A DNA stretch of 39,978 nt from Clostridium sp. DSM 17811 (GTDB lineage: Bacteria; Bacillota; Clostridia; Clostridiales; Clostridiaceae). How positions within the stretch are numbered: position 1 is the first letter of the stretch; every line of letters starts with the position of its first letter. Below are positions 20,025 through 23,870 of this stretch, piece by piece. The stretch is from NCBI RefSeq assembly GCF_018861905.1, contig NZ_JAHLDU010000030.1:1-39978 (forward strand), given 5' to 3'. The position numbers and the translations under genes were made by a program. Under the pieces are notes generated by a model that was not told the DNA's origin, did not search any database, and was given only the letters and a program-made list of their open reading frames with translations.

Positions 20025-20275
20025 TTAAAAACTGTGACGAGGAAAAGTAAATATTATGCTGTTCTAAGAGAGAGAAACTCATCGGCTGTAAAGTTTCTTG
20101 AACAAGCAATATTGAAAACCACCTCTGAGTTGATTACTGAACTTAAGTAGGTAATTCCGCTAGCCGGCGTTAATGGTGTTGAGTGATAGAAGTGTTTTTT
20201 TATTATGCTTTTGTAATTTGGGTGGAATCGCGATAAAACTCGTCCCTTACTTTGGGACGGGTTTATTATTTTTTG
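20025..20275 (+). promoter_or_regulatory. T-box riboswitch upstream of thrS, threonine specifier
   Basis: A leader that reads uncharged tRNA-Thr. Stem I begins near 20033 (GTGACGAGGAAAAGTAAAT). The specifier is ACC (Thr) at 20118-20120, set by alignment of GAAA-ACC-ACCTCTGAG with the same place in the second leader of this window. The T-box motif TGGGTGGAATCGCG is at 20219-20232. Its bulge UGGA would pair with a tRNA 3' end having U at position 73. The antiterminator pairs GGG and GCG with CGT and CCC (20242-20246). The competing terminator pairs 20236-20246 with 20254-20264 and is followed by ATTATTTTTT. Confidence 0.92.
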
Positions 20276-22140: not shown

Positions 22141-22169
22141 TTGATTTAATTTATAATAAGTAATATAAT
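22141..22169 (+). promoter_or_regulatory. Promoter of the aspartyl-tRNA synthetase leader
   Basis: TTGATT (22141-22146), a 17-bp spacer and a perfect TATAAT (22164-22169). It is placed just before the T-box leader. Confidence 0.75.
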
Positions 22170-22177
22170 GTAATAAA

Positions 22178-22433
22178 TATTCATAATTCTGTGAAGAGAA
22201 GAGTAAATGTTATCTGAGTATCTAAAGCGAGTGGGGAAGGGTGGAAGCTCCATGAGAAAAGTAATATTGAAAGACATCTCTGAGAAGTTTATCTGAAATT
22301 TAAAGTAAGATAAATCGGATTCCTCCGTTATAGGGAGTTGAGATGACGTAGTTTAATAAACTTTGTCAAAGTAGGATGGTACCGTGAAAAAAGCTTTCAC
22401 TTCTATATAAGAAGTTAAGGCTTTTATTTTTTT
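22178..22433 (+). promoter_or_regulatory. T-box riboswitch, complete first unit, aspartate specifier
   Basis: A full T-box. Stem I begins near 22190 (GTGAAGAGAAGAGTAAAT) and resembles the thrS leader. The specifier GAC (Asp) is at 22273-22275 in GAAA-GAC-ATCTCTGAG. The T-box motif AGGATGGTACCGTG is at 22373-22386, with bulge UGGU. The antiterminator pairs TAGGA with TTCTA and GTGAA with TTCAC. The terminator pairs 22389-22404 with 22410-22425 (one wobble, one mismatch), followed by seven T at 22427-22433. A second antiterminator/terminator unit follows directly. Confidence 0.9.
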
Positions 22434-22552
22434 ATTCAGAATAGGGACCATTCTGAAGGGTTCATTACTATTTTGCAAATTTTATTAAAGTAGGTTAATT
22501 AGGGTGGCACCACGAATTTCGTCCCTTGAGTTTATTACTCAAGGGACTTTTT
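22434..22552 (+). promoter_or_regulatory. Second T-box antiterminator/terminator without Stem I
   Basis: A second consensus T-box, AGGGTGGCACCACG (22501-22514). Its bulge UGGC complements a tRNA end with G73. The antiterminator pairs AGGG with CCCT and ACG with CGT. The terminator is a perfect 11-bp stem, 22521-22531 with 22537-22547, followed by five T. Only about 67 nt separate it from the first terminator, too few for a normal Stem I. That gap holds an 8-bp hairpin (22435-22442 with 22450-22457) whose 7-nt loop is AGGGACC. Confidence 0.88.
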
Positions 22553-22580
22553 AATATAAATTTTAAAGGAGAGGTTGTAT

Positions 22581-23870
22581 ATGAAAAGAGTTATGATAAA
22601 TGAAATGGATAATTTAATAGGTGGAAAAATACAAATTAAAGGTTGGGTTTATCGAGTAAGAAAATTAAAAACTATAACATTCATTATAATGAGGGATAGG
22701 ACTGGTTTTGTACAATGCATTGCAGAGAATAAGGCTATAGATATGAGTACAATAAAGTTAGAATCAGTAATATCAATCGTTGGAGAAGTAAAAGAAGATA
22801 AAAATACATTAAATCCTTATGAGATAGTAATTGAAGAATTTGAAATAATTAATAGTGTAACAGAAGAATTACCAATAGAAATAAATAAAGCTACCTTAGA
22901 CATTAACTTAGATACCATGTTAGATAATAGAGTTTTGAGCCTACGCCATGAAAAAATTAATTCAATATTTAAAATACAAAACCTGATTGTACAAGGGTTT
23001 AGAGAGTTCTTATCTAAGGAAGGTTTTACAGAGATTTTTACACCTAAAATTGTAGCTGAAGGTGCCGAGGGGGGGACTGAAGTATTTGAATTGAAATATT
23101 TTGAAAATAAAGCATACCTAGCTCAAAGTCCTCAGTTTTATAAACAGATGATGGTAGGTGCAGGATTTGAAAGAGTTTTTGAGGTTGCTCATGTATATAG
23201 GGCAGAAGAGCATAATACTAGTAGGCATCTTAATGAGTATATTAGCATGGACTGTGAGATGGGATTTATTGAGGATGAAAAAGATATTATGGATTTGGAA
23301 GAAAACTTAATAATATTTATAATAAATAAAATATCTCAAGAGGGTGAAAAATATCTAGAAATATTAAATCTAGATTTACCTAAATTAAATGCAAAAATTC
23401 CAAGAATAAAATTTAGTGAAGCATTAGAAATATTGAGCACTGAATATAATAAATCAGATTTAGATGGAGATTTAGATCCTGATGCAGAAAAATTGATTTG
23501 TAAATATTCAAAAGAGAAATTTGGGTGTGATTTTATTTTTTTAACTCATTATCCAAGAAAAAAAAGGCCAATGTATACAATGCCTTTAGGTGAAACTGAA
23601 ACACATAGCTTTGACTTATTATTTAGAGGTGTAGAAATTACAACAGGTGGTCAAAGAATTCACGACTATAACATGTTAATTGAAAATATTAAATATAAAG
23701 GATTAACACCAGAGGTTTATCACAATTACACTTCTGTTTTCAAATACGGAATGCCACCGCACGGAGGGCTTGCAATTGGACTTGAGAGAATTACAGCGCA
23801 ATTGCTAGGATTAGAAAACGTAAGAGAAGCATCATTATTTCCAAGAGATAGAACAAGATTAGCACCATAA
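22581..23870 (+). CDS. aspS: Aspartyl-tRNA synthetase, archaeal type (possibly non-discriminating)
   Basis: A 429-residue class IIb synthetase. The ATG at 22581 is chosen because AAAGGAGAGG ends 6 nt upstream; a TTG at 22575 is too near. An N-terminal OB-fold anticodon-binding domain (about 1-105: IQIKGWVYRVRKLK, FIIMRDRTGFVQ) is followed by the catalytic core. The core shows FTEIFTPKIVAEGAEGG, SPQFYKQMM, motif 2 RVFEVAHVYRAEEHNTSRHL, and motif 3 GGLAIGLERITAQLLG. FLTHYPRKKRPMYTMP and the lack of the large bacterial insertion domain mark it as the archaeal/AspRS2 type rather than standard bacterial AspS. Such enzymes often also charge tRNA-Asn, for later amidation by GatCAB. The Asp specifier in its T-box supports AspRS rather than AsnRS. 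Confidence 0.88.
   Translation: MKRVMINEMDNLIGGKIQIKGWVYRVRKLKTITFIIMRDRTGFVQCIAENKAIDMSTIKLESVISIVGEVKEDKNTLNPYEIVIEEFEIINSVTEELPIEINKATLDINLDTMLDNRVLSLRHEKINSIFKIQNLIVQGFREFLSKEGFTEIFTPKIVAEGAEGGTEVFELKYFENKAYLAQSPQFYKQMMVGAGFERVFEVAHVYRAEEHNTSRHLNEYISMDCEMGFIEDEKDIMDLEENLIIFIINKISQEGEKYLEILNLDLPKLNAKIPRIKFSEALEILSTEYNKSDLDGDLDPDAEKLICKYSKEKFGCDFIFLTHYPRKKRPMYTMPLGETETHSFDLLFRGVEITTGGQRIHDYNMLIENIKYKGLTPEVYHNYTSVFKYGMPPHGGLAIGLERITAQLLGLENVREASLFPRDRTRLAP

Follow-up and report, generated by a model that had tools for sequence, protein, structure and literature searches.

A partly duplicated T-box leader of aspS2 in Clostridium sp. DSM 17811, with two serial switches and a Stem III strand proposed to serve both

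The stretch of DNA analyzed here, referred to as the window, comprises 39,978 nucleotides (nt) of Clostridium sp. DSM 17811 (contig NZ_JAHLDU010000030.1) and includes aspS2, a gene for an archaeal-type aspartyl-tRNA synthetase (AspRS). The aspS2 leader begins downstream of thrS and contains a single T-box sensor followed by two successive switches, each with an antiterminator and a terminator. Both switches, a 5' strand of Stem III common to the two, its covariation, and a predicted swap of that strand from one switch to the other are supported by computation.

Architecture of the aspS2 leader

The features of the leader and its gene are as follows.

22141-22169, + strand: promoter-like TTGATT-17-TATAAT, 10/12 matches; weak, with 4 such sites in the region versus 3.0 in shuffled sequence
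22182-22284, + strand: Stem I of the sole complete T-box, from the Rfam alignment
22273-22275, + strand: specifier codon GAC (Asp), in the specifier loop GAAA-GAC-AUC
22287-22330, + strand: Stem II and F-box region, CGGAUUCCUCCGUUA, from the Rfam alignment
22340-22344, + strand: purine string GAGAU (RRRxG-like), directly 5' of Stem III; motif as given in the antiterminator passages of PMC7583486
22345-22354, + strand: S5, GACGUAGUUU, the Stem III 5' strand that both switches are proposed to use
22358-22367, + strand: S3_1 (strand 1), the 3' strand of Stem III in switch 1, AAACUUUGUC; 9 of 10 positions pair with S5
22373-22386, + strand: T-box 1, AGGAUGGUACCGUG, bulge UGGU
22372-22405, + strand: antiterminator 1, 11 pairs (UAGGA/UUCUA and GUGAAA/UUUCAC), -3.9 kcal/mol without tRNA
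22387-22436, + strand: terminator 1 (T1) with U-rich tail, fold of -14.2 kcal/mol
22436-22456, + strand: gap hairpin UCAGAAU/AUUCUGA, -4.8 kcal/mol
22487-22496, + strand: S3_2 (strand 2), the 3' strand of Stem III in switch 2, AAAGUAGGUU; 8 of 10 positions pair with S5
22501-22514, + strand: T-box 2, AGGGUGGCACCACG, bulge UGGC
22501-22526, + strand: antiterminator 2, 8 pairs (AGGG/CCCU and ACGA/UCGU), -4.2 kcal/mol without tRNA
22521-22552, + strand: terminator 2 (T2) with U-run, 11 pairs, -18.2 kcal/mol
22581-23870, + strand: aspS2, AspRS of the archaeal type (nondiscriminating family), 429 aa, start codon ATG at 22581, from an NCBIfam match

Consistent with the original prediction of one full T-box with a GAC specifier, the Rfam T-box model RF00230 matches 22182-22407 over positions 1 to 219 of 219 with 110.6 bits (gathering score 93). 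When 22400-22600 was compared with the same model alone, only the 3' half of a T-box was matched (22400-22529, model positions 108 to 219 of 219, 29.3 bits, E 3.9e-5), confirming that the antiterminator and terminator at 22501-22552 are not preceded by a second Stem I. Whole-T-box scans can miss second switches of this kind, as the Rfam scan at the gathering score did here. A simple terminator scan flagged T2 as the sole site (1 versus 0.2 in shuffled sequence) and did not flag T1. As had been predicted, both antiterminators can be drawn by base pairing, and each carries a UGGN-ACC bulge between helices A1 and A2; the two bulge sequences and the spacing also agree, with T-box 2 starting 67 nt after the seven-U run of T1, which ends at 22433, or 75 nt after the end of the T1 hairpin. 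Partly duplicated T-boxes are a class with one Stem I and a doubled terminator-antiterminator part; the window leader has one Stem I and two antiterminator/terminator pairs.

The stem of the gap hairpin is kept in the near relatives L002, L003, and L005, and the hairpin is possibly a dimerization or spacing element. Its loop reads AGGGACC in the window and AGGGCCC in L002 and L005. The GAC in this loop was considered as a mini specifier and rejected, as near relatives show GGGCCC there.

Conservation of both switches and pairing of the Stem III strands

The same doubling was sought in the aspS leaders of related species, as the original prediction had proposed, using two sets of AspS2 loci: 30 from relatives (the best 30 of the matches listed) and 80 among the matches listed in named genomes, 5 of which repeat the first set and were counted once (L091, L092, L093, L097, and L100 are L006, L007, L009, L011, and L020). 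Two T-box sequences were present in 23 of the first 30 leaders, one in 6, and none in 1, and the named set contributes 18 further doubled leaders, for a total of 41 distinct doubled aspS2 leaders. These include leaders from Clostridium puniceum, C. intestinale, C. paridis, C. simiarum, C. drakei, and C. caldaquaticum, as well as Sedimentibacter hydroxybenzoicus and Lutispora saccharofermentans; L006, L007, and L009 derive from C. mobile, Clostridium sp. CS001, and C. tagluense, respectively. By a strict pattern, the specifier is GAC in 25 of the 41 and AAC in 4, with no match in 12, of which 5 show GAC by eye; the contig of L020 lacks Stem I.

Both switches are well conserved across these leaders. 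All 7 core antiterminator pairs are present in 41/41 leaders for switch 1 and 36/41 for switch 2, whereas shuffled downstream sequence gave averages of 7.5 and 5.2 leaders (maxima over 60 rounds, 14 and 11). Helix A2 is fully paired (3/3) in all 41 leaders for both switches, and A1 (4/4) in 41 and 36. A hairpin with a U-rich tail follows each switch in 41/41 leaders, in a search without chance control, and the median terminator energy is -18.2 kcal/mol for T2 compared to -15.9 kcal/mol for T1. A1 reads AGGA or AGAA in switch 1 of 34/41 leaders, and AGGG, UGGG, AGAG, or GAGG in switch 2 of 37/41, a difference between the copies that could prevent mispairing of the switches. The spacer separating the T1 hairpin from T-box 2 ranges from 21 to 275 nt, indicating that the gap is neither fixed nor, in the short cases, sufficient for a Stem I. 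The closing pair of A2 in switch 1 (22384-22400 in the window) is G-C in 34/41 leaders, and in switch 2 is G-C in 22, G-U in 11, and A-U in 8. In the relevant passages of PMC7583486, the amino acid is sensed sterically, primarily by a G-U wobble that closes A2, in contrast with the mostly G-C closure of switch 1 here.

According to those same passages, the antiterminator requires Stem III, preceded by a purine string (5'-RRRxG) and followed by AA, and the role of Stem III was recognized in 2019. Switch 1 has this full layout (GAGAU-Stem III-AA), and switch 2 has a Stem III 3' strand ending in AA, typically GUU-AA. A side-by-side listing of the leaders pointed to the 5' strand of switch 1 as the partner of the switch 2 3' strand. 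In a duplex test on the 41 leaders, the region from -48 to -14 of T-box 1 (the S5 region) was paired with the 15 nt before T-box 2, and partners were permuted among leaders. Own partners gave -6.55 kcal/mol versus -4.39 +- 0.27 kcal/mol for permuted ones (0/20,000), and the known switch 1 helix, serving as a positive control, gave -6.68 versus -4.62 kcal/mol. The result persisted in 33 less redundant leaders (-6.21 versus -4.29, 0/20,000). The 34 nt directly upstream of the switch 2 strand showed no pairing of their own (-3.68 versus -4.05, with 18,267 of 20,000 permutations as low), and a negative control region at -100 to -60 gave no signal (-4.53 versus -4.24; 1,967/20,000).

Similar results were obtained when the helix was anchored from switch 1 alone, blind to switch 2, which was possible in 38/41 leaders (L119 has no AA before T-box 1, L129 no RAGNN, and L005 no AA before T-box 2). 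Out of 8 positions, 6.55 paired in switch 2 versus 5.24 +- 0.17 with permuted partners, and 6.21 in switch 1 versus 4.71 +- 0.20 (0/20,000 for both); restricting switch 2 to the less redundant set, of which 30/33 leaders were usable, gave 6.63 versus 5.21 +- 0.19. Each of the 8 S5:strand 2 pair positions shows at least 2 Watson-Crick pair types (e.g., A-U/G-C at position 2 and U-A/C-G/A-U at position 4), and an unbroken S5:strand 2 helix of at least 4 pairs from the AA is found in 30/38 leaders. A local Stem III for switch 2 within the gap was rejected as a rule, since the 41 leaders show no local covarying partner and a purine-led local helix of at least 4 pairs can be drawn in only 4/40 (L009, L020, L025, and L127, not including the window), in each of which the shared helix with S5 equals or exceeds the local helix in length. 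While the original prediction termed the second switch complete, and its antiterminator and terminator stand, switch 2 itself appears to provide no 5' strand for Stem III.

Predicted strand swap, its possible function, and alternatives

Folding predictions point to S5 swapping from strand 1 to strand 2. When 38 aspS2 leaders were folded up to T-box 2, the probability of S5:strand 2 pairing was 0.85, compared to 0.25 with swapped-in strands, with the own strand higher in 33/38; including the six leaders of other genes described below, the values were 0.80 and 0.22 (own higher in 38/44). In staged folds of all 44 leaders (38 aspS2 and 6 other), Stem III was placed on switch 1 with a probability of 0.74 at T-box 1, but once T-box 2 had been made, this fell to 0.00 on switch 1, with 0.80 on switch 2. 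For the window, Stem III was at 1.00 on switch 1 and later at 0.00 on switch 1 and 1.00 on switch 2. Across the 44 leaders, the openness of the UGGN in T-box 1 dropped from 0.81 to 0.31 once the gap was transcribed. By this shift, the earlier switch would come to lie inside the loop formed by Stem III of the later switch. Additionally, the T-box 1 UGGN was less open with the leader's own gap than with shuffled gaps (0.23 versus 0.38; lower in 24/31), a comparison confined to the 31/38 leaders with a sufficiently long gap and counted as a hint only.

Based on these data, it is probable that the aspS2 leader is a T-box with a nested discriminator, in which switch 1 lies in the Stem III loop of switch 2 and a single Stem I serves both. 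In such a leader, Stem I, with its GAC specifier, would recruit tRNA-Asp, and S5 would first pair with the nearby S3_1 to support antiterminator 1, so that an uncharged tRNA would allow RNA polymerase past T1. The second 3' strand would then emerge just before T-box 2 and capture the same S5, so that a large Stem III would form with switch 1 (T-box 1, T1, and the gap) as its loop. T-box 2 would thereby reach the former place of T-box 1, adjacent to the purine string and to the tRNA bound at Stem I. T1 could then fold harmlessly behind the polymerase, helping to release the tRNA end, and the tRNA bound to Stem I would be tested again at T-box 2. As termination at T1 is irreversible, the switches would act in series, and aspS2 would be expressed in full only if the tRNA were uncharged at both tests, a serial AND gate with one sensor. 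The order of two serial switches was part of the original prediction and is confirmed, while the tighter, AND-type control it envisaged follows from that order only; we infer this control, along with the hand-over of one tRNA between the switches, from the arrangement described. A common Stem III strand provides a concrete, testable mechanism by which the second switch could work without a Stem I or purine string of its own.

Several observations weigh against this interpretation. The leaders are related, so the permutation figures overstate their independence. An earlier anchor, the last RAGNN motif, was misplaced in many rows and gave weaker, although still significant, pairing (5.58 versus 4.70); the switch-1-only anchor that replaced it is still misplaced for some leaders (L026 and those with a Tyr specifier described below) and was corrected by hand in one fold test only. 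With automatic anchors, S5:S3_2 pairing was 0.00-0.38 in L006, L008 (0.38), L026, L094, and L107, and hand-set anchors restored most of these, yet L094 reached only 0.23 and L006 0.60. In the window itself, strand 1 forms a stronger isolated duplex with S5 (-10.4 kcal/mol) than strand 2 does (-7.7 kcal/mol), and the best unbroken helix in an unanchored search starts at 22350 rather than 22345. By the rule used, L129 is without the purine motif, and L119 may, by eye, have a separate, short Stem III of 3 pairs within switch 2, yet in its fold S5 remains paired with strand 2 at 0.80 (hand-set anchor). The near relative L004, with an AspS2 91% identical, has switch 1 only. Finally, equilibrium folds ignore tRNA, proteins, and polymerase speed, and an antiterminator 1 held by tRNA may yield too late.

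Other explanations for the second switch were also considered. It might capture free uncharged tRNA without Stem I and thereby report general charging, akin to the earlier suggestion that it is read without codon recognition. T-box 2 does keep UGGN, ACC, and both helices, and short gaps leave no space for a second Stem I, but switch 2 retains a Stem III 3' strand that covaries with S5, the strand adjoining the single Stem I, and we regard this reading as very unlikely. That switch 2 is a mere back-up terminator for leak-through, with tRNA irrelevant at T2, would fit the greater strength of T2 both in the window (-18.2 versus -14.2 kcal/mol) and at the median. However, a plain terminator requires no T-box, the antiterminator pairs follow in 36-41 of the 41 leaders (a set defined by the T-box sequence) against 5-8 by chance, and the covariation with S5 is again unaccounted for, making this explanation unlikely as well. 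Similarly improbable is the idea that strand 2 complements S5 only as a functionless leftover of strand 1 having been copied, whether in a recent duplication or through gene conversion. The two 3' strands are indeed identical at 172/304 compared positions. At the 132 positions that distinguish them, however, pairing with S5 is seen for strand 2 at 88 (67%; null 46 +- 3%, 0/5,000), for strand 1 at 75 (57%), and for neither at 8, and in L103, L104, L017, and L020 strand 2 forms the longer helix of the two. This preference indicates that copying alone does not account for the complementarity.

That UGGU and UGGC let the switches read two different tRNAs, those for Asp and Asn, is hardly credible, although this AspRS falls within the nondiscriminating family (604.5 bits with NF003483 and 458.5 bits with TIGR00458, each above cut-off). 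The 3 tRNA-Asp (GUC) and 2 tRNA-Asn (GUU) genes read, of 80 tRNA matches in the genome, all have the discriminator base G73, as the original prediction had expected. The special role it gave to the difference between UGGU and UGGC was not upheld: the variable bulge letters of switches 1 and 2 are CU in 13 leaders, UC in 11, UU in 11, and CC in 6, so neither order nor difference is kept, and the bulge letters were rejected as a tRNA selector. The T-box database TBDB, in the portion of PMC7778990 concerned, allows a G-U pair at the bulge position and lists U opposite G73 in 46% of Trp T-boxes. The genome also has asnS-like and asnB-like genes with T-boxes of their own, specifier AAC (genes named by eye), and no match to gatB, which a control search found in 12/14 genomes. 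Given the latter result, Asp-tRNA(Asn) transamidation was rejected as a role of aspS2, despite the nondiscriminating family of its product. It is speculative, but an AspRS of this family, if produced without need in a cell lacking gatB, could mischarge tRNA-Asn, a possible reason for tight control. A bacterial-type AspRS-like frame of 602 aa (labeled from its length) is present in the genome as well. Upstream of aspS2, thrS has a single T-box of its own (20025-20250, specifier ACC, bulge UGGA), and the tRNA-Thr genes read in the genome have U73.

Distribution and relation to known systems

In an AspS2 tree with 63 rows, including 40 with a doubled leader (L126 and most distant loci of the named set were excluded), the doubled label required 6 changes compared to a shuffled mean of 19.2. 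The tree shows a broad group in which most leaders are doubled and a few are single or lost, together with a smaller AAC group. The claim that partial duplications are rare holds within the genome, where the window leader is the sole partly doubled T-box among 30 matches, but not upstream of aspS2, where the doubling is widespread. The genome count derives from a motif scan of each match plus 450 nt downstream and is a lower bound, as the scan overlooked the T-box of 2/30 matches (L044 and L046). The genome additionally carries one complete tandem T-box (L045/L051, contig C18), with two full-length Rfam matches and T-box sequences 339 nt apart.

Two aspS2 leaders of the same genus are disrupted. 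In L014, a phage-type integrase open reading frame (PF00589; L014:3090-4175, - strand) lies upstream of aspS2, and the sole remaining T-box sequence is of the switch-2 type. In L013, an open reading frame with RRXRR and HNH domains (PF14239 and PF01844; L013:2874-4109, - strand), presumably IscB-like, lies directly upstream of aspS2, with no T-box sequence within 900 nt.

Leaders of other genes with the same plan were searched for in 391 genomes of the class using a pattern of two T-box sequences with a U-run between them and a short gap. This pattern was found at 7 places in 6/391 genomes, corresponding to six leaders; it also misses the window leader (0 in G000), so the 7 places are a lower bound for short gaps only. 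An alternative pattern (ATGGNACCGTG...) matched 0/391 genomes. Three of the six leaders precede genes for a sodium:solute symporter (Tyr specifier UAC), one of them carrying three switches, two precede genes for a PutP-like symporter (proline codon by eye), and one precedes argG. In a profile search with one protein per leader kind, the argG protein passed its cut-off, the Pro-leader protein passed the sss superfamily cut-off and scored best with PutP, although below the PutP cut-off, and the Tyr-leader protein was below all cut-offs (best sss, 140 bits).

The later 3' strands complement the first 5' strand, as with GAAUAGAUA and UAUCUAUUC in one Pro leader and GGUGU and ACACC in the argG leader, and in both kinds of leader S5 is predicted to pass to the last strand with automatic anchors too. 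For the Tyr leaders, anchors hand-set after the purine motif gave S5:strand 2 probabilities of 0.83 and 0.72, with S5 passing to the last strand at 0.72-0.98. In the triple Tyr leader (L181/L187, G024), S5 paired with strands 1, 2, and 3 at 0.94, 0.62, and 0.98 as the transcript lengthened (hand-set anchor). Given their hand-set anchors, the Tyr leaders count for less as evidence, and they also furnish counterevidence: with the automatic anchor, whose rule chose another site, S5:S3_2 pairing was 0.00 in all three, and in those of G017 and G405 the unanchored best switch 2 helix lay elsewhere. The terminator search found no hairpin at the first switch of the G405 Tyr leader or at the third switch of the triple leader. 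Given that these genes are unrelated to aspS2, the leaders point to a general way of adding a switch to a T-box. Whether partly tandem T-boxes as a group, including Asp, Asn, Tyr, Pro, and argG leaders, are nested strand exchanges that arose more than once, in which one tRNA-bound aptamer is passed along 2-3 platforms, is in our view evenly balanced. If so, each new Stem III 3' strand would displace the last, and one tRNA would be tested repeatedly, amounting to proofreading of tRNA charging.

T-boxes with duplicated terminator-antiterminator elements were reportedly described by Vitreschak et al. in 2008 (RNA 14:717), and they share with the aspS2 leader a single T-box with a doubled antiterminator/terminator part; that work is not known to state that the copies have a common Stem III 5' strand. 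A T-box of Clostridium acetobutylicum is said, in work by Saad et al. from 2013, to have a specifier loop read in two frames. Both that leader and the one of aspS2 are clostridial and belong to the Asp/Asn field, but the aspS2 leader has a single specifier and a doubled expression platform.

A 2020 review, in its passage on partly duplicated T-boxes, calls their mode of action unknown. Complete tandem T-boxes (trp and thrS; PMC12452182, relevant sections) resemble the aspS2 leader in having serial switches that read the same tRNA, but each unit has its own aptamer, in contrast with one Stem I and two platforms here, and neither of the two types of contiguous riboswitches surveyed in those sections consists of one aptamer with two platforms. 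The tandem architectures in the corresponding parts of PMC9481103 are likewise multi-part leaders with logic, but they combine several aptamers with one platform or repeat whole riboswitches, and none there hands one aptamer between platforms. A common Stem III strand or an aptamer passed between platforms was not described in the open-access literature searched or in passages of PMC7583486, PMC12452182, PMC9481103, PMC7778990, PMC2494555, PMC9413887, PMC4342826, and PMC2965389. The aspS2 leader therefore belongs to a known class, while its nested mechanism appears new within that literature and would represent an RNA device, not listed in those parts of PMC12452182 and PMC9481103, in which one aptamer serves several serial platforms.
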